Assembly: GCA_022841825.1 (NCBI GenBank) | Contig: JALHQT010000002.1 | Coordinates: 457,276-521,275, forward strand | Direction: 5' to 3' | Length of the DNA stretch: 64,000 bases | Origin: Anaerolineae bacterium | Lineage (GTDB): Bacteria > Chloroflexota > Anaerolineae > Aggregatilineales > Phototrophicaceae | Shown: piece after piece, positions 1 to 10,901 of the stretch | Numbering within the stretch: the stretch's first letter is position 1 | Layout of the letters: the number at the start of each line of letters is the position of its first letter | The notes under the pieces: model-generated | Told to the model about the DNA's origin: nothing | Database searches by the model: none | What the model saw: the letters and a program-made list of their open reading frames with translations, nothing else | Made by a program: the position numbers and the translations under genes

Positions 1-232
1 AATTGGAAGTTCGAGCGGGGATGTATTCGGAAATGGGGGCAATTCGTCCGCAGGCGGTTGAAAACCGCCCGCTATATGGAAACGACGCCCCCTACAGGGG
101 CTGGCAATAGGGGACTTGGGCAGAGACGAGTCAGCCTGCTGCGCAGGCGTCGTCGGGATAGCCGGACGTTTCCAACGTTCGGCGGGGCGGTTCGCCCCGA
201 AAACCGAATGCACCTTCTCACCAGAAGTAAAT
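1..232. repeat. Hairpin-rich intergenic block
   Basis: No convincing gene. The 13-mer GCAATTCGTCCGC (39-51) recurs exactly at 8634-8646. In both places it is followed by a hairpin built around GTT-(C/G)AA-AAC with different, self-complementary arms: here GGCGGTT (53-59) with AACCGCC (63-69). Further inverted repeats follow at about 139-151 (CCTG/CAGG), 162-182 and 182-198 (GGGGCG/CGCCCC). Confidence 0.6.
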
Positions 233-260
233 TTGACACGTCACGCCGCGTCATTATAAT
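233..260 (+). promoter_or_regulatory. Sigma-70-like promoter of the sulfur locus
   Basis: Perfect consensus -35 TTGACA (233-238) and -10 TATAAT (255-260) with a 16-bp spacer. Transcription would start near 266-268, about 30 nt before the cysteine-rich leader peptide and about 250 nt before the first enzyme gene. Confidence 0.85.
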
Positions 261-296
261 CATGAGTAGAGTGTTTAGTGTGAGAATGTAGCTCCA

Positions 297-380
297 ATGT
301 CCAGCTTCTCCGTCATGTGTTGTGCTTGTTGTTGTCTCTGCCGCCAGAACGCCGGCAGCAGCCAGGGCACGCCTACGTGA
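297..380 (+). CDS. Cysteine-rich leader peptide (putative attenuator uORF)
   Basis: A 27-codon reading frame from ATG 297 to TGA 378. Six of residues 8-15 are cysteine (CCACCCLC), encoded by five TGT and one TGC. It sits about 30 nt after a consensus promoter and ends 28 nt before a strong intrinsic terminator, all upstream of cysteine-metabolism genes. The layout matches ribosome-mediated attenuation: stalling at Cys codons when Cys-tRNA is short would alter downstream folding. A hairpin CTGCCG (338-343)/CGGCAG (353-358) overlaps the last Cys codon. The ribosome-binding site is weak (GTGAGAA about 10 nt upstream); ATG 315 in the same frame is an alternative start that keeps all six cysteines. 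Function is inferred from layout; the frame and cysteine run are seen directly. Confidence 0.75.
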   Translation: MSSFSVMCCACCCLCRQNAGSSQGTPT

Positions 381-407
381 CGTTGTAGCGATTACACACA
401 GTCATCG

Positions 408-440
408 AAGCCCAGGTTGTACGCCTGGGCTTTTTGTTTT
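408..440 (+). terminator. Intrinsic terminator in the leader (attenuator)
   Basis: Perfect 9-bp stem AAGCCCAGG (408-416) / CCTGGGCTT (424-432) with a 7-nt loop, then TTTTT-G-TTTT. It lies after the leader peptide and before the structural gene, so it would act as an attenuator. GCCAGGGC (361-368) could pair with 7 of 8 bases of the 3' arm (423-430), a weak antiterminator candidate. Confidence 0.85.
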
Positions 441-459
441 GTCGCACGAGGGATCGCCC

Positions 460-487
460 GTAGGGGCGCAATATATTGCGCCCCTAC
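460..487. repeat. Palindromic repeat, core CAATATATTG
   Basis: Perfect 28-bp palindrome of the GTAGGGGCG/CGCCCCTAC family, between the leader terminator and the start codon at 517. Identical to the copy at 25813-25840. Confidence 0.9.
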
Positions 488-516
488 TACGCACCCATAA
501 CAGGATTGCATCGCTC

Positions 517-1722
517 ATGACCGAAGAGACTCGCACCGCCAGTACCCACACCAGCACGCAAGCCGTGCATGGCGCTGCGGCGCGTCGCAAGCCGTCGGGG
601 TCGGTCACGACGCCGATTGTCCAGACTTCGACGTACACCTTCGCCGATACGGCGGAGCTGCGCGATTTCATGGAGCGCAAGCACTATCGCGGCGGCGGCG
701 ACAGCGTGGAATATGGGCGCTACGGCAACCCGACGGTCGAGGCGGTCGAGGCGAAGATCGCCGCGTTGGAAGGCGGCGATGGCGCGCTGCTCTACCCGTC
801 CGGCATGTCGGCAGTCACGTCGGTGCTGCTCACGCTGCTGCGTCCCGGGCTGCACATCGTCCTGACCGACGACTGCTATCGCCACACGCATGACTTCTGT
901 GTCGGCTTCCTCAAGCGCTACGGTGTCGAGACGACGGTCGTGCCGATGGGCGATGACGCGGCGCTGGAAGCGGCGATCATCCCGCGCAAAACGCGCCTGA
1001 TCCTGACCGAAAGCCCGACTAACCCCTACCTGCGCATCGCCGACCTCGAACGGGTCGCCGCGCTCGGCAAGGCGCACGGCGCGCTGACGATGATCGACAG
1101 CACCTTCGCCACGCCCGTCAATCAGCGCCCGCTCGAATGGGGCATCGACCTGGTCATGCACAGCGCGACCAAGTATCTGGCGGGGCATAACGACCTGCTG
1201 GCGGGGGTCATTATCGGGCGGCAGGATCGCATCGACGCGCTGCGTGAGCATCGCGGCTTACTGGGCGGCATCGTCGATCCGCACGCGGCATACCTGCTGG
1301 ATCGCGGCATCAAGACGCTGGCGCTGCGGGTTCAGCAGCACAACGCCAATGCCCAGGCGGTCGCGGAGTATCTGGAGGCGCATCCGAAGATCGCGCGGGT
1401 CTGGTATCCGGGCTTGGCGTCCCACCCGGATCACGCCCTGGCGAAGGCGCAGATGCGCGGCTTTGGCGGCGTCGTCACCTTCGAGGTGGCTGCCGATTTC
1501 GACGGCACCAGCGCCTTCATCGACCGCCTGCGTATCCCGTACATCGCCGCCAGCCTGGGCGGGGTCGAAAGCCTGATCCAGCAGCCCGCGCTGATGAGCC
1601 ATTTCGAGATGGCAGCCGACGAGCGGCGCGCGCAGGGCATCACGGACAATCTCGTCCGTTTCGCGGTCGGCATCGAAGACGCGCAGGATTTGATCGACGA
1701 TCTCGCGCAGGCGCTGGAATGA
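517..1722 (+). CDS. Cys/Met metabolism PLP-dependent transsulfuration enzyme (cystathionine gamma-synthase/lyase-like)
   Basis: 401 aa, the normal length for the Cys/Met metabolism PLP family (MetB, cystathionine gamma-lyase, methionine gamma-lyase, O-acylhomoserine sulfhydrylase). The PLP lysine is K219 in SATKY; YGRYGNPT near residue 66 and YPSGMSA near 93 are typical cofactor/phosphate-binding motifs. The frame stays open upstream to 322, but the family N-terminus begins at ATG 517; upstream codons lie in the leader terminator and a palindrome. First gene after the cysteine leader, followed by mec, cysO-moeZ and cysM on the same strand, so the context is cysteine/homocysteine interconversion. 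Which reaction is catalysed cannot be fixed by eye. Confidence 0.9.
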   Translation: MTEETRTASTHTSTQAVHGAAARRKPSGSVTTPIVQTSTYTFADTAELRDFMERKHYRGGGDSVEYGRYGNPTVEAVEAKIAALEGGDGALLYPSGMSAVTSVLLTLLRPGLHIVLTDDCYRHTHDFCVGFLKRYGVETTVVPMGDDAALEAAIIPRKTRLILTESPTNPYLRIADLERVAALGKAHGALTMIDSTFATPVNQRPLEWGIDLVMHSATKYLAGHNDLLAGVIIGRQDRIDALREHRGLLGGIVDPHAAYLLDRGIKTLALRVQQHNANAQAVAEYLEAHPKIARVWYPGLASHPDHALAKAQMRGFGGVVTFEVAADFDGTSAFIDRLRIPYIAASLGGVESLIQQPALMSHFEMAADERRAQGITDNLVRFAVGIEDAQDLIDDLAQALE

Positions 1723-1738
1723 AGGTGCGAGGTGCGTG

Positions 1739-1766
1739 GTAGGGGCGACCCATGGGTCGCCCCTAC
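1739..1766. repeat. Palindromic repeat, core ACCCATGGGT
   Basis: Perfect 28-bp palindrome, GTAGGGGCG family. Identical copies at 48479-48506 and 54666-54693. Lies in the gap between the transsulfuration gene and mec. Confidence 0.9.
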
Positions 1767-1784
1767 GGAAAACCCACGATGTTT

Positions 1785-1810
1785 GTAGGGACGAGGCGTG
1801 CCTCGTCCGT
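1785..1810. repeat. Palindromic repeat, core AGGCGTGCCT
   Basis: Second family copy in the same gap (GTAGGGACG...CGTCCGT), ending just before the GAGG ribosome-binding site of the JAMM gene. Confidence 0.8.
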
Positions 1811-1821
1811 TGAGGATAACT

Positions 1822-2253
1822 ATGCAAGTGCAGTTGTCGCAGACGTTGAAAGCGCAGATCTTCGCCCAGTTGGAGGCGACGTACCCCCATGAGGGCGGCG
1901 GTTTCCTGCTCGGCAGCGGGGGCGATGTGGTCGAAATTCACGACATCCTGCCGGTCGCCAACGTGTTCGAGGAGTCCGAGCGCCATCATCGCTACGCGAT
2001 GACGCCGCAGGACTGGATGCGCATGGAGGACGAGGCGGATCGGCGCGGCTTCAGCATCGTGGGCTACTACCACAGCCACCCGGATTCACCCGCCATTCCG
2101 TCGGAATACGACCGCGAGTATGCGCTGCCGAATTTCGTCTACATCATCACCTCGGTCATGGCGGGCAAGGCGGATCATGTGCGGGTCTGGCGGCTGCGCG
2201 AAGACCGGACGGCGTTTGATGAAGGTGGTTTACAAATTGACCCTCACCCCTAA
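1822..2253 (+). CDS. mec: JAMM/MPN+ metallopeptidase, Mec-like
   Basis: 143 aa, single-domain Mov34/JAB protein. The full zinc-metallopeptidase signature is visible: E24, then H84-x-H86-x7-S94-x2-D97 (HSHPDSPAIPSEYD). In mycobacteria, Mec cleaves the CysO-cysteine adduct to release cysteine. Here the gene is followed at once by a CysO-MoeZ fusion and cysM, the mycobacterial order mec-cysO-cysM, so the same role is likely. Start ATG 1822 is chosen because GAGG (1812-1815) precedes it and upstream in-frame codons lie in a palindromic repeat. The last codons and the stop come from a CCCTCACCCCTAA repeat, so the C-terminus may have been reset by a repeat insertion. Confidence 0.9.
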   Translation: MQVQLSQTLKAQIFAQLEATYPHEGGGFLLGSGGDVVEIHDILPVANVFEESERHHRYAMTPQDWMRMEDEADRRGFSIVGYYHSHPDSPAIPSEYDREYALPNFVYIITSVMAGKADHVRVWRLREDRTAFDEGGLQIDPHP

Positions 2254-2338
2254 CCCCTCTCCCTCAGGGCGAGGGGAACCAGAAGAGTCTGGAAGTCCCT
2301 CTCCATGAGGGAGAGGGATTTAGGGTGAGAGTTTCTGA
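2240..2338. repeat. CCCTCACCCC-type inverted repeat
   Basis: Long imperfect inverted repeat: CCCTCACCCCTAA at the left, TTAGGGTGAGAG at the right, with CCCTCTCC/GGAGAGGG-type arms inside and a CAGAAGAGTCTG centre. A related element with the same CAGAAGAGTC centre lies at 59705-59812. It supplies the stop codon of mec. Confidence 0.7.
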
Positions 2339-2362
2339 AGCATGAAAGGGTATCGACAGAAC

Positions 2363-3868
2363 ATGGCATCCATCAAAATTCCCAGCCCCTTGCGGGCATT
2401 CACCGGCGGGCAGGCAGTCGTCAGCGTCGCGGGTGCGACGGTGGGCGAGGCGCTGACCGACCTTGTGACGAAACATCCTGAACTGCGCCAGCATCTTTAT
2501 GAGGGCGAGTCGCTGCGTAACTTCGTCAAGGTCTTCCTGGGCGAAGAAGACGTGCGCTTCCTCGACGGCATCAGTACTCCCGTGGACGACGCGACCGAGC
2601 TGCGCATCATCCCCAGCATCGCGGGCGGGTCGTATGCCCCGCTGATCGAGGCGAGCGGGACGCTGTCCAACGACGAAATCCGCCGCTACGCCCGCCATGT
2701 CACGCTGCCCGATGTCGGCATGGAGGGGCAGAAGCGTCTGAAGGCGGCGAGCGTGCTGCTGATCGGCACGGGGGGTCTCGGCTCGCCCCTGGCGCTCTAT
2801 CTGGCGGCGGCGGGCATCGGGCGCATCGGCTTGGTCGATTACGATGTGGTCGATGAGACGAACTTGCAGCGTCAGGTGATCCATGGGCAGGGCAGCGTCG
2901 GCAGCCTCAAGGTCGAGAGCGCCGCCGCCCGCATGAAGGACATCAACCCGTACTTGCAGGTCGATCTCTACAACGTCGCACTCACCTCGGAGAACGCGCT
3001 CGAACTGTTCGCGCCGTACGACGTGATCATCGATGGCACCGACAACTTCCCGACGCGCTACCTCGTCAACGATGCCTGCGTCAAGCTGGGCAAGCCGAAC
3101 GTCTACGGCAGCATCTTCCGCTTTGAGGGGCAGGTGAGCGTCTTCTACGCCAAAGAGGGACCCTGCTACCGCTGCATGTTCCCCACGCCGCCGCCGCCCG
3201 GTCTCGTGCCGAGCTGCGCCGAAGGCGGCGTGCTGGGCATCCTGCCGGGCACGGTCGGCACGCTCCAGGCGACCGAGGCGATCAAGTTGATCCTGGGCAT
3301 TGGCGAGCCGTTGATCGGCAAGATGCTGCTTTACGATGCGCTCGACATGAGCTTCACCACGCTCAAGGTGCGCAAGAGCCACGACTGCCCGGTGTGCAGC
3401 GGTCGCCCGGAAGATGTGCAGTTGATCGATTATGAGGAGTTCTGCGGCATGCCTGCTTACGAAAACAGCGACTACAAGCCGGTCGTGGCACAGCCCGCCG
3501 CGCCTGAGGCGATCACCGTGCGCGAACTCAAGACGCGCTACGACAGCGGCGTGCCACAGGTGGTGGTCGATGTGCGCGAGCCGCACGAGTGGGAGATCAG
3601 CGCGCTGGATGGCACACTGCGCATCCCCAAGGGACTGATCGAGGCGGCGAAGAACGACGTGATCGCCGGGCGCAAGCGCCGCGAAGAGACCGTGCTGGCG
3701 CAGATTCCGAATGTGGGCGAGGTGGTCGTCCACTGCCGTTCCGGCAAACGCAGCGCGGACTCCATCGCCTTCCTGCGCGAAGCAGGCTACACCAACCCGT
3801 TGATTAATCTGACGGGCGGCATCCTCGCCTGGGCAGATGAAATCGATACGACGATGGCGAAGTATTAG
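2363..3868 (+). CDS. moeZ: CysO-like ubiquitin-fold carrier fused to MoeZ/MoeB-type E1 and rhodanese
   Basis: 501 aa from ATG 2363 (ATG 2342 also possible). Residues 1-89 match a CysO/MoaD-type beta-grasp sulfur carrier (IPSPLRAFTGGQ near the start, ending PSIAGG at 88-89). Residues about 100-350 are a ThiF/MoeB adenylyltransferase with ATP loop GTGGLG (135-140) and zinc cysteines C268/C271 (CYRC) and C342/C345 (CPVC). Residues about 380-501 are a rhodanese with catalytic C458 in CRSGKRS. In mycobacteria CysO and MoeZ are separate: MoeZ adenylates and sulfurates the free C-terminal Gly-Gly of CysO. Here the Gly-Gly is internal, so either cleavage, perhaps by the adjacent JAMM protein, or an unusual in-cis mechanism is needed. 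No in-frame start codon follows the GG that would give a separate E1. The start 2363 matches the usual CysO N-terminus. Confidence 0.9.
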   Translation: MASIKIPSPLRAFTGGQAVVSVAGATVGEALTDLVTKHPELRQHLYEGESLRNFVKVFLGEEDVRFLDGISTPVDDATELRIIPSIAGGSYAPLIEASGTLSNDEIRRYARHVTLPDVGMEGQKRLKAASVLLIGTGGLGSPLALYLAAAGIGRIGLVDYDVVDETNLQRQVIHGQGSVGSLKVESAAARMKDINPYLQVDLYNVALTSENALELFAPYDVIIDGTDNFPTRYLVNDACVKLGKPNVYGSIFRFEGQVSVFYAKEGPCYRCMFPTPPPPGLVPSCAEGGVLGILPGTVGTLQATEAIKLILGIGEPLIGKMLLYDALDMSFTTLKVRKSHDCPVCSGRPEDVQLIDYEEFCGMPAYENSDYKPVVAQPAAPEAITVRELKTRYDSGVPQVVVDVREPHEWEISALDGTLRIPKGLIEAAKNDVIAGRKRREETVLAQIPNVGEVVVHCRSGKRSADSIAFLREAGYTNPLINLTGGILAWADEIDTTMAKY

Positions 3869-3871
3869 AAG

Positions 3872-4050
3872 GAAGTTGCCCTCACCCCCCAGCCCCCTCT
3901 CCCACACGTCGCGTAGGGAAACTCGACTCAAGTCAGCCTCTGAGCGCGACGGGGGCGAGGGGGAGCCAGATGTAGGGACGAGGCATGCCTCGTCCGTCTG
4001 GAAGTCCCTCTCCACGCAGCTTGCGGAGTGGGGAGGGATTTAGGGAGGGG
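3872..4050. repeat. Composite repeat block
   Basis: Gap between moeZ and cysM. Holds a CCCTCACCCC-type element (3879-3955), a GTAGGGACG palindrome with core AGGCATGCCT (3972-3998) and the right half of another CCCTCTCC/GGGAGGG element (4005-4050). Confidence 0.7.
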
Positions 4051-4087
4051 TAATCAAACGACGTATTGTAAGAGGACGAAGACGACG

Positions 4088-5032
4088 ATGACCATGATGA
4101 CGAGCGTGAACGCCCATACGATAGAGACGCTGATCGGCAATACGCCGCTGCTGAGTTTCCCGCGCGCCGCCGCGCATCTGCCGCCTAACGTGCGGCTGTA
4201 CGCCAAAGCCGAGTGGGCGAACCCCGGCGGCAGCGTCAAGGATCGCGCGGCGCTCAACATCATCCGCACCGCCGAGCGCGAGGGCAAGCTGAAGCCCGGC
4301 ATGACGCTGGTCGACAGCACCAGCGGCAACACGGGCATCGCCTACGCCATGCTCGGCGCGGCGCGCGGCATCCGCGTCAAGCTGTTCCTGCCCGCCAACG
4401 CCAGCAAGGAGCGCGTCGCCATCCTGCGTTCTTATGGCGTCGATCTGGTGCTGACCGACCCGCTCGAAGGCTCGGACGGGGCGATCCGCGCCGTGCGCGA
4501 GCTGGTCGCGCGTGAACCCGACCGCTACTTCTACGCCGACCAGTACAACAACCCCGCCAACTGGCAGGCGCATTACGAGACGACCGGGCGCGAAATCTGG
4601 GAGCAGACCGAGGGAACTGTCACGCACTTCGTGGCGGGCTTGGGCACCAGCGGCACGCTGATGGGCACGGGACGCCGCCTGAAGGACTACAATCCCGCGA
4701 TCCGCGTCATCTCGTTGCAGCCCGATTCGCCGTTTCATGGCGTCGAAGGCTGGAAACACATGCCGACCGCCATCCAGCCCGGCATCTACGACGTGGGCTT
4801 CGCCGACGAAAATCGGGGCGTCCGCACCGAAGACACCTACGCGATGATCAACTGCCTGGCGGCGGAAGAGGGCTTGCTGGTTGGCATCAGCGCGGCGGCG
4901 GCATTCGTCGGCTCGCTGCGTGTGGCGGAGGAGATCGCCGAACGTGGCGAGGCGGGCGTGGTCGTCACGCTCTTCCCGGATGACGCCAGCAAGTATCTGT
5001 CGCACGCGCCCTGGTTAGGGGTCACGAACTAA
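4088..5032 (+). CDS. cysM: Cysteine synthase B-type (CysM)
   Basis: 314 aa, fold type II PLP enzyme. PLP lysine K51 lies in NPGGSVKDRAAL; the substrate loop STSGNTG and the phosphate cradle GLGTSGTLMGTG are intact. Fourth gene of the sulfur locus, after mec and the CysO-MoeZ fusion, so by analogy with mycobacterial CysM it may use the CysO thiocarboxylate as sulfur donor and O-phosphoserine as acceptor. Donor and acceptor cannot be decided from sequence alone; O-acetylserine is the alternative. Start ATG 4088 follows AGAGG (4071-4075); ATG 4094 and 4097 are also in frame. The gene ends 20 bp before the converging livF stop, with no room for a separate terminator. Confidence 0.92.
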   Translation: MTMMTSVNAHTIETLIGNTPLLSFPRAAAHLPPNVRLYAKAEWANPGGSVKDRAALNIIRTAEREGKLKPGMTLVDSTSGNTGIAYAMLGAARGIRVKLFLPANASKERVAILRSYGVDLVLTDPLEGSDGAIRAVRELVAREPDRYFYADQYNNPANWQAHYETTGREIWEQTEGTVTHFVAGLGTSGTLMGTGRRLKDYNPAIRVISLQPDSPFHGVEGWKHMPTAIQPGIYDVGFADENRGVRTEDTYAMINCLAAEEGLLVGISAAAAFVGSLRVAEEIAERGEAGVVVTLFPDDASKYLSHAPWLGVTN

Positions 5033-5052
5033 GCATCTCGGCGAAGGCGTCT

Positions 5053-5772
5053 CTACCCCAGATACGCCTGTTTCACACGTTCATCGATCATCAGTTTGTC
5101 AGCGGTGTCGCTGAACTTGATGCTCCCCGCCTCCAGGACATAGCCGCGCGCCGCCATCTGAAGCGCCAGGGTAGCGTTCTGCTCGACCAGCAGCACCGTC
5201 ACCCCTGCGCTGTTCAACTGCCGAAGGGTCGCAAAGATCTCACGCACCACGATCGGCGCAAGACCGAGCGAGGGTTCGTCGAGCAGCAGCAGGCGTGGGC
5301 GGCTCATCAGCGCGCGGGCAATCGCGAGCATCTGCTGTTCGCCACCGCTCAACGTCCCGGCGAGCTGTTCCCGCCGCTCTCTCAGTCGTGGGAAGCGCTC
5401 GAACTGCTGCTCCAGGTCGTCGGCGATGCCAGCGCTATCACCTCGGATGTACGCGCCGAGCAGCAGGTTGTCCTCGACCGTCATGCGCGCCAGCACGCGC
5501 CGCCCCTCCGGAACATGCGCGATCCCCATTCGGACGACGCGGTCGGGGCGCTCTGCAAGCAGGCTCTGCCCCTCAAAGAGAATTTCGCCCGCCTTCGCCG
5601 CGATGATGCGCGAAATGGCGCGCAGCGTCGTGCTTTTGCCCGCGCCGTTCGCGCCGATCAGCGTGACGACTTCGCCAGGGTAGACGACGAGGTGGATGTC
5701 CTTGAGCGCCTGGATCGCGCCGTAGTGAACCGTCAGGTGCTTCAGTTCGAGCAGCGGCGTTCCTGCGCTCAT
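5053..5772 (-). CDS. livF: LIV-type ABC transporter ATPase LivF (system 1)
   Basis: 239 aa ATP-binding subunit of the polar/branched-chain amino acid uptake family. Walker A GANGAGKST (about 40-48), signature LSGGEQQM, Walker B LLLLDEP and the H-loop-region LLVEQN are all present. Last gene of a minus-strand operon SBP-livH-livM-livG-livF. Its start overlaps the livG stop by 4 bp (ATGA), indicating translational coupling. The substrate is not identifiable; branched-chain amino acids, amides and urea are all used by this family. Confidence 0.95.
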   Translation of the reverse strand: MSAGTPLLELKHLTVHYGAIQALKDIHLVVYPGEVVTLIGANGAGKSTTLRAISRIIAAKAGEILFEGQSLLAERPDRVVRMGIAHVPEGRRVLARMTVEDNLLLGAYIRGDSAGIADDLEQQFERFPRLRERREQLAGTLSGGEQQMLAIARALMSRPRLLLLDEPSLGLAPIVVREIFATLRQLNSAGVTVLLVEQNATLALQMAARGYVLEAGSIKFSDTADKLMIDERVKQAYLG

Positions 5773-6539
5773 GGCTCATCTCCCAGGTATGCCTCGATCA
5801 CGGCGCGGTCATTCTGGACTGCCGCCGGATTCCCCAGGGCGATCAGCTCTCCGAAGTTGAGTACGGCGATGCGGTCGCACAACCCCATGACCAGCGGGAC
5901 GTTGTGCTCGATCAACACGATGGTCAACTTGAATTTGTCCTTCACGTCGCGGATGAAGGCGCTCAGACTCGCTTTTTCGTTCGGGTTCATGCCCGCGCCC
6001 GGCTCATCCAGCAGCAGAAGCTGTGGTTTCAGCGCCAGCGCGCGCGCGATTTCCAGTCGCCGCTGGTCGCCATAGGGGAAGTTGCGCGCCTTGACGTGCG
6101 CGCGGTCTGCCAGATTGACCATCTCTAACAATTGCATTGCCTCTTCTCGCACCATCCGCTCTTCACTGCGCGCACCGGGCAGCCCAAAGACGCCCGCGAC
6201 GACCCCGCTGCGCGTATGCACATGCTGTGAAACCATAACGTTCTGTTGGGCGCTGAGGTTCCCAAATAGGCGGATGTTCTGGAAGGTGCGGGCGATGCCT
6301 TTGGCGGCGATCTGGTGCGGCTTGAGTCTGCCGATGTCGTCGCCGCGATAGGTCAGCCTGCCGCTCGTCGCCGGCGTCAACCCGGTGATCAGATTAAACA
6401 GGGTGGTCTTGCCCGCGCCATTGGGTCCGATCAAGCCGAAAATCTCGTCGCGCTGCACGGCGAAAGACACCTCGTTCACCGCGATCAAGCCGCCAAAGCG
6501 ACAGGTCAGCTTGTGAACGTCGAGCAGCGTTTCGCTCAT
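5769..6539 (-). CDS. livG: LIV-type ABC transporter ATPase LivG (system 1)
   Basis: 256 aa. Walker [10 protein letters not shown] (about 38-46); the signature region is [15 protein letters not shown], the usual LivG variant of LSGGQ; Walker [14 protein letters not shown] carries the LivG-type extension. Overlaps livM and livF by 4 bp each, so the three genes are coupled. Works as a heterodimer with LivF on the cytoplasmic face of LivH/LivM. Confidence 0.95.
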
Positions 6540-10307: not shown

Positions 10308-10901
10308 ATGTCCTACATGGCACAGCATGTTCATGCGAATGAAACAGAGCTTTCGCGCGATGAATTGATCGCGCTGCGCAACAAGCGCACAGGGATGACC
10401 GTCTTCCAGCTATCCTGGATCATGGTCTTCGTCTGTCTCTTTGTCGTCAATCTGGCGATTCGCGGTAACTTCGTCACCTGGCCACCCGAGGGCGTCGAAC
10501 GTCTTAGCCCGGTCGTGCCGATCATCGCCAGCCTGCTGCTGCTCGCCAGCGGTTGGACCGCGTATCAGAGCCTGCAAGCCATCAACGCCGACCAGCACGG
10601 GCGGTTTTTCAGTCAGTGGCGGCTGACGCTGGTGTTGGGGGTGCTTTTCCTGGTGGGGATGGGCGCGCAGTGGTTCAGCGTGACAGACAGCGGGCAGTAT
10701 GGCACAATCTCGCGCGCGATGATCGGCTATCATGCGCTGCACGCGCTGGCGATCATGGCGTACATGTGGCATGTGGATGGGCGTGTGCGCGCGGGCGTTG
10801 TGTCGGCGCGCGATAGCTGGGCGGTTGAGGCGGGTGCCAGGCTGTGGTATTTCGTCATCGTCGCCTGGATCATCTTTTTTGTGGCGCTCTACGTGCTATA
10901 A
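10308..10901 (+). CDS. Heme-copper oxidase subunit III-like membrane protein
   Basis: 197 aa with five predicted membrane segments (about 28-50, 68-88, 102-122, 138-158, 175-196). The final helix, ARLWYFVIVAWIIFFVALYVL, resembles the last helix of cytochrome oxidase subunit III, and two His in the fourth helix (GYHALHALAIM) fit the family. First gene of a cluster with a canonical subunit III and a subunit IV, so it is probably a second, divergent subunit III paralogue. ATG 10317 is an alternative start; neither has a strong ribosome-binding site. Confidence 0.7.
   Translation: MSYMAQHVHANETELSRDELIALRNKRTGMTVFQLSWIMVFVCLFVVNLAIRGNFVTWPPEGVERLSPVVPIIASLLLLASGWTAYQSLQAINADQHGRFFSQWRLTLVLGVLFLVGMGAQWFSVTDSGQYGTISRAMIGYHALHALAIMAYMWHVDGRVRAGVVSARDSWAVEAGARLWYFVIVAWIIFFVALYVL

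Follow-up and report, generated by a model that had tools for sequence, protein, structure and literature searches.

A candidate Cys-tRNA-reading transcription attenuator ahead of a cysteine synthesis gene row, and a set of similar leaders in the order Aggregatilineales

Positions 233-441 of the 64-kb stretch of DNA analysed here (i.e. the window, C2:457276-521275 of the source genome G000, 5.9 Mb in 21 contigs) probably form a transcription attenuator of the ribosome-mediated kind, which would sense charged Cys-tRNA and so control a CGS-mec-cysO/moeZ-cysM row of genes. From the sequence, a probability of about 0.84 was assigned to this reading, which had been proposed in a first-pass annotation of the window and is now supported by comparison rather than by experiment. 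The anatomy of the leader was observed directly, as were the recurrence and codon bias of such leaders in relatives and the alternative pairings conserved there.

As first annotated, the region starts with a perfect TTGACA-16-TATAAT promoter on the forward strand (233-260; 12/12 consensus matches), from which transcription would begin near 267, and continues with a 27-codon leader peptide ORF, MSSFSVMCCACCCLCRQNAGSSQGTPT, on the same strand (297-380) that has six Cys within residues 8-15 and a TGA stop at 378-380. The ATG at 297 lies 36 nt past the -10 hexamer, a distance outside the leaderless-start geometry, and because the promoter at 233-260 points to a start near 267 the window leader is not taken to be leaderless. 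A clear Shine-Dalgarno sequence was not seen before this ORF in the window sequence. The proposed sensor is the Cys codon run TGT TGT GCT TGT TGT TGT CTC TGC (318-341, forward strand); Cys runs are likewise conserved in the leaders of relatives. Such a Cys density exceeds chance: when dinucleotide shuffles of 119 upstreams were taken together, 0.13% held a stop-free stretch of 14 codons with 6 Cys codons. The terminator with a T-run that had been described before the first gene was recovered on the forward strand at 407-433 as an 11 bp stem with a loop of 5 followed by TTGTTTTG; in the predicted fold its 5' arm (region 3) spans 407-417, and its 3' arm (region 4, 423-433) together with the T-rich tail spans 423-441. 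Rfam models (SAM riboswitch, T-box and others) gave no match in window positions 1-2233 at E<=1.

Four genes follow on the forward strand. The first belongs to the cystathionine gamma-synthase (CGS) family (Cys_Met_Meta_PP, 517-1722; PF01053, E 2.9e-136; best solved relative 1i41, a cystathionine gamma-synthase) and is followed by a mec-like JAB-domain gene (Prok-JAB, 1822-2253; PF14464, E 1.2e-22), a cysO-moeZ-like fusion with domain matches to ThiS, ThiF and rhodanese (2342-3868) and a cysM-like cysteine synthase gene (4088-5032; PF00291; best NCBIfam match cysM, under its cut-off). The mec/cysO-moeZ/cysM locus of the first-pass annotation is therefore present but, as the first gene is of the CGS family, the row has to be corrected to CGS-mec-E1-cysM. 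The genes CGS, mec, cysO/moeZ and cysM would be carried on one transcript. The genes behind the leader represent the CysO route of cysteine synthesis; cysE was not found in the source genome and was present in 8 of 31 relatives' genomes (7 above cut-off), a rarity in keeping with cysteine synthesis via the CysO route. Palindromes sharing GTAGGGGCG...CGCCCCTAC lie on either side of the CGS gene (at about 459-488 and 1739-1767) and may be linked to an insertion of this gene between the leader and mec. Similar C-rich repeats (CCTCACCCC...CCCTCTCCC) occur between genes at about 2240-2335 and 3880-3960; the sole Rfam hits, sub-threshold matches to miRNA families, sit on the 2240-2335 repeat and look like chance.

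Folding of the window sequence produced all three states that attenuation requires. The Cys run falls within a predicted fold (1:2) at 321-371 on the forward strand (321-327/365-371, 331-334/359-362 and 338-344/351-358; MFE -20.3 kcal/mol), of which the previously described hairpin at 338-358 is a part; with a z of +0.40, this fold was no better than shuffles. The fold includes the predicted antiterminator strand (region 2, 358-368, forward strand). Ten bases separate its end from the stop codon, and a ribosome terminating there would mask it. This strand, GCCAGGGC, pairs with the terminator 5' arm (365-368/410-413 and 358-363/415-420) in a 2:3 duplex of -18.0 kcal/mol (z -4.4 versus 100 shuffles). 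Among the strands of 79 other leaders, none pairs as well with the 5' half of the window terminator, the window's own strand ranking first of 80. Pairing of 361-368 with the terminator 3' arm, as originally put forward, was wrong, the partner being the 5' arm; pairing of region 2 with the 5' arm is what attenuation needs, and the on/off logic of the first-pass annotation holds with this partner but not with the one initially given. When 318-441 was folded, the Cys run paired with 351-371 and the terminator was formed. Masking 318-344, as a stalled ribosome would do, before synthesis of the terminator 3' arm gave 358-363/415-420 plus 365-368/410-413 as the MFE structure. On 345-441 the free-energy minimum was the terminator and not the antiterminator, and hence the antiterminator must win by forming first.

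Under the attenuation model, a ribosome translating the leader with ample cysteine would pass the Cys codons and reach the stop codon at 378-380, where it would cover region 2 (358-368), allowing the terminator (407-433) to form and transcription to stop. When cysteine is scarce, the ribosome would stall within 318-341 and break the 1:2 fold; the freed region 2 could then pair with the terminator 5' arm (410-420), and transcription would proceed into the genes. Both the stalling at Cys codons and the regulatory response are thus predictions from the arrangement of these elements.

Orthologues of the CGS gene were found in 76 of 101 genomes, the source genome included, and the upstream regions of 69 of these were examined in relatives (7 of 76 CGS places in relatives being left out). 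A SAM riboswitch (RF00162) was present at 46 of the 69 loci, with one SAM-I-IV match in addition (47/69), and a test for leaderless Cys leaders was negative for all 69 upstreams (0/69). No SAM riboswitch precedes the CGS gene of the window, and the CGS gene likewise lacks one in four genomes of the same genus (G001, G002, G007 and G013). The single SAM riboswitch match of the source genome lies before a gene that we take to be metK-like. The window CGS gene has thus either escaped SAM control or belongs to a lineage that never possessed it. The regulator before this one gene differs, being a SAM riboswitch at most of the relatives' loci (L009-L077) and the Cys leader in the window (517-1722). 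CGS orthologues were rejected as the place of leader conservation, as they hold SAM riboswitches, and the search for leaders was therefore moved to mec and cysM. Conservation of the Cys codons and terminator in relatives was found, but before these two genes and not before the CGS orthologues; a lack of such conservation, which the first-pass annotation had named as a refutation, was thus not what the comparison returned.

A mec profile made from nine sequences matched 122 of 154 genomes of the order Aggregatilineales (Chloroflexota, class Anaerolineae). Exclusion of G017 and G072 (match cut short) left 120 mec upstreams, and a set of 119 additionally omits G057 (82 nt). Leaderless geometry (i.e. 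TTG, 16-18 bases, TAnnnT, 6-8 bases, ATG and then a short ORF) was observed before mec in 87/120, all 87 with at least 2 Cys and 80 with at least 3, as compared to 0/120 reverse complements and 8/3,600 shuffles (1/3,600 with at least 2 Cys); of the 119 upstreams from relatives, 32 lacked this geometry. The spacing was 17 in 80/87 and the ATG lay 7 bases past the -10 in 68/87, even though ORFs had been selected for Cys and for neither distance. Leaderless transcripts are predicted from this geometry. By family, the geometry was detected in 77/90 (f1), 4/5 (f4), 6/8 (f7), 0/4 (f2), 0/1 (f3), 0/2 (f6) and 0/10 (f8), a gap explained in part by 17 genomes in which cysM directly precedes mec; in some of these the leader precedes cysM. 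A terminator-like hairpin was found no more than 150 nt from mec in 85/119, and together with at least 3 Cys in 14 codons in 79/119. Cys codons were concentrated in the leader frame (368 versus 179 and 113 in the other frames).

Region 2 of the mec leaders fitted its own terminator better than did region 2 of other genomes. In an alignment-free test of 80 leaders, the mean percentile was 0.28 (0.5 expected), and genus averages (23 genera) gave 0.185 (p 4e-5). In single genomes, the 2:3 duplex reached p<=0.05 versus shuffles in 27.5% of the 80, and many did not beat shuffles. Pairing was then counted in 43 of the 80 leaders, hand-chosen for spacing and spread (alignment A4), on the same sequences from which the helices were derived, as was also the case for cysM. 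The terminator was paired in 85.8% of cells, with changes on both sides in 64 cells versus 25.2, and the 2:3 antiterminator in 59.2% (slid controls at most 40.6), with both-side changes in 50 cells versus 36.7. Counted as pairs, 13 of the 2:3 helix exhibited both-side change versus 10.9, a value reached by 46/500 shuffles. Clean compensatory changes in mec leaders of genus g17 (alignment A2) were dropped as the two registers share no columns.

Similar leaders precede cysM. Upstreams were examined for 99 of 119 cysM genomes, and in 72/99 an ORF reached a density of at least 3 Cys per 8 codons, three of them doubtful (G040, G091 and G099) and excluded from the region 2 fit test, which used the other 69. 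The same density was found in 10/98 reverse complements, 7.0 in shuffles and 6/68 CGS upstreams; at least 4 Cys in 8 codons were detected in 59/98 cysM upstreams as compared to 2 reverse complements, 0.2 in shuffles and 0/68 CGS upstreams. In-frame Cys codons numbered 318 versus 71 and 22 in the other frames, and an ending resembling CCCLKRGR is common to many of these peptides. Leaderless geometry is rare in this group (4/72). Folding revealed a two-part terminator, a form missed by the terminator finder, and no Rfam family matched in the eight cysM leader loci searched. Region 2 fitted its own region 3 at a percentile of 0.306 over the 69 leaders (p 1e-6). In 45 of the 69, hand-chosen for spacing and spread (alignment A3), cells were paired at 79.7% for 1:2, which uses the Cys codons, 73.5% for 2:3 and 81.7% for 3:4; slid controls gave at most 49.6, 54.1 and 55.2, respectively. 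Cells with both-side changes numbered 24 versus 9.1 for 1:2, 39 versus 28.1 for 2:3 (reached by 16/500 shuffles) and 71 versus 30.2 for 3:4. The 2:3 helix had 10 pairs with both-side change versus 8.8 (reached by 133/500 shuffles), and covariation was weakest for this helix in cysM and mec leaders alike.

These terminators bear on control at the level of translation, of the mycobacterial type, in which stalling would expose the ribosome binding site of the downstream gene. Actinobacteria likewise have short poly-Cys ORFs, often leaderless, in front of cysteine genes, as far as the accessible portions of PMC1262725 and PMC13236596 describe them, and this shared feature would fit such control. 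We nevertheless consider it quite improbable here: a strong intrinsic terminator lies between the window ORF and the gene, terminators are found within 150 nt of mec in 85/119 upstreams and their stems covary in relatives. Furthermore, the window terminator ends 76 nt 5' of the CGS start and is therefore too far away to mask the CGS ribosome binding site.

The reach of attenuation beyond mec and cysM was assessed with two covariance models, R1 for cysM leaders and R2 for mec leaders alone. R1 matched 41 of 61 genomes at E<=0.1, 28 of which had given no sequence to the model. In 11 R1 loci that were read, cysM lay behind the match in eight and a DUF4395-like gene with a thioredoxin-like ORF in three f3 genomes (L456, L468 and L470), the DUF4395 family match being confirmed for one of the three. 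This cysM-type attenuator before the DUF4395-like/thioredoxin-like pair hints at a role for the pair in thiol metabolism. R2 acts in part as a detector of terminators, with many weaker matches spanning only model positions 142-177. Reading was confined to the 21 of 32 rows that covered the whole model, were not before mec and were not on the opposite strand of another row. In fifteen of the 21 the leader contained 3 or more Cys, and 14 of these lay ahead of sulfur or cysteine genes and one ahead of carbonic anhydrase; two had another residue bias that fits their gene and four had neither. Among the matches listed, non-mec Cys leaders precede genes for OAH/OAS sulfhydrylase (four genomes), sulfurtransferase (six), sulfate-binding protein (two) and sulfite reductase, cysK and carbonic anhydrase (one each). 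Seven genes behind R2 matches and the DUF4395 gene matched the expected families (carbonic anhydrase by Pfam alone), and a further nine were identified through their 48-93% identity to three of the family-matched genes. The source genome has two of these Cys leaders, one at C4:160759-160930 (MSSFSSPLAIHSPAAAMCCCMCCMMITERTRDA, with leaderless geometry) and a second at C10:153486-153652. The two matches with another bias were a Thr/Met-rich leader, MIAGCAPHTMTTFTMTMTTGMGMMTARQTVPAAPGARGD, with a terminator before an aspartate kinase gene (L482, G062:C41:5890-6080) and an Ile/Leu/Val-rich leader, MFTIMHSNKPNTILLSLIIVIVLVIPAGL, with a terminator before an ilvE gene (L495, G019:C160:8437-8602). Leaders before cysS and cysE were sought without success: the leaderless test picked out 0 of 29 cysS upstreams, 2 of which contained 4 or more Cys in 14 codons, and for the 7 cysE loci both counts were 0.

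Residue content also bears on the nature of the signal. Met codons of the mec leaders are enriched in frame (220 versus 31 and 33), 152 of the 220 lying no more than 2 residues from a Cys, and joint sensing of Met-tRNA by these leaders is a fair guess. The same codons could instead reflect a Cys/Met-rich nascent peptide that binds a metal or thiol and arrests the ribosome, making metal or redox state the signal rather than tRNA charging; MCMCM-like motifs of the leaders resemble metal-binding motifs. This explanation is highly improbable given that the leaders stand before genes of cysteine and sulfur metabolism, that the peptides vary widely apart from their Cys codons and that the aspartate kinase and ilvE leaders are rich in Thr/Met and Ile/Leu/Val, as tRNA sensing predicts.

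The window leader itself matched R2 weakly (286-441; 13.8 bits, E 0.0034 over 64 kb, the E-values being rough) and was not among the matches listed in the whole-genome R2 search. R1 had no match up to E 10 in window positions 1-6000 and none in G000 at E 0.1. Mean z values of pairwise alignments were 2.8 with the mec type, 2.5 with the cysM type and 5.4 with the genome's own C4 leader. Elsewhere in the window, a second and weaker R2 match was detected at 10719-10828 (9.2 bits, E 0.09). Because of the weak R2 match and the lack of an R1 match, the window leader is at best a divergent member of the relatives' leader set. These same results, with the unusual first gene and a 1:2 fold no better than shuffles, would also suit a decayed copy, unregulated in the source genome, in which a Cys-rich frame happens to adjoin a leftover hairpin or a terminator that is constitutive. 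This explanation has only a very slim chance, given the perfect promoter, a run of eight codons with six Cys and an own 2:3 duplex that was the best of the 80 leaders tested. Under the attenuation reading, the window leader would be a divergent representative of the leaders that precede cysteine and sulfur genes in its order, and would work as those of its relatives do.

Attenuators of the trp/his type combine a leader ORF with codons for the pathway amino acid, competing 1:2, 2:3 and 3:4 helices and an intrinsic terminator before the first gene. The window is alike in its run of end-product codons (six Cys in eight codons) before cysteine genes, in an intrinsic terminator between the leader ORF and the first gene and in an antiterminator, as computed, that excludes the terminator. 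The Chloroflexota leaders differ in that the amino acid is cysteine (plus methionine in mec leaders) and most mec leaders look leaderless. Ribosome-mediated transcription attenuation of the trp/his type is described in the accessible part of PMC9413887. A comparable system is the uORFC-8-2 motif of Rhodobacterales, located before cysS, for which a Cys-codon leader and an intrinsic terminator are predicted and read as ribosome-mediated attenuation (PMC8632094, in the portion available). As described there, this alphaproteobacterial motif has two tandem Cys codons and precedes cysS, whereas the Chloroflexota leaders have runs of 3-6 Cys and precede biosynthesis and sulfur genes; the first gene of the window is of the CGS family and not cysS. 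The SAM riboswitch (RF00162), which controls the CGS orthologues of relatives, differs in being a ligand aptamer without a leader peptide.

Mycobacterial poly-Cys leaderless sORFs before cysteine genes were reportedly described by Canestrari in 2020. For poly-Cys short ORFs before cysteine genes in actinobacteria, the available text of PMC1262725 records that no conserved terminators were found, and that of PMC13236596 describes poly-Cys control in M. smegmatis as 'translation attenuation'; both agree with the remark in the first-pass annotation that the actinobacterial system works differently. On these partial accounts, poly-Cys leaders are common to both groups and leaderless in 87/120 mec upstreams, although the window copy is not leaderless; the mycobacterial sORFs lack conserved terminators, whereas the Chloroflexota leaders possess intrinsic terminators and antiterminators. 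The accessible part of PMC8079986 outlines a noteworthy parallel, a Streptomyces metN leader that contains Met and Cys, is leaderless and lacks a typical terminator. No report of Cys attenuators in Chloroflexota was found in the open-access literature searched, including the available portions of PMC9094748, PMC9031893, PMC4833913, PMC7790235, PMC2965389 and PMC3766115 and of PMC1262725, PMC13236596, PMC8632094, PMC8079986 and PMC9413887.

As judged from their sequences, the leaders of the relatives look like a cysteine regulon run by ribosome-mediated transcription attenuation. More tentatively, and at somewhat less than even odds, the whole Chloroflexota order may possess a Cys/Met regulon without a dedicated sensor protein, in which parallel, often leaderless attenuators (mec/cysO/cysM, OAH/OAS sulfhydrylase, sulfurtransferase, sulfite reductase, cysK and sulfate uptake) read Cys-tRNA, perhaps jointly with Met-tRNA; the architecture would be re-used with Thr/Met (aspartate kinase) and Ile/Leu/Val (ilvE), and a SAM-riboswitch gene would have been brought under a Cys leader in the window. 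Cysteine attenuation has so far been described, in the literature as partly accessed, at the translation level in mycobacteria and as a single predicted motif before Rhodobacterales cysS. If true, a conserved, multi-gene set of cysteine attenuators in a deep-branching phylum would mean that an entire pathway can be controlled by leader peptides in place of riboswitches and repressors. Leaders that have a 5' UTR and leaders that lack one would form a natural series, and one gene would exemplify a change from a SAM riboswitch to a Cys leader. For bacteria known almost exclusively from MAGs, the leaders also give sequence-based access to sulfur regulation. The presence of the same kind of switch before cysteine and sulfur genes in many relatives suggests that bacteria of this order tune their sulfur metabolism by the speed at which ribosomes read cysteine codons.
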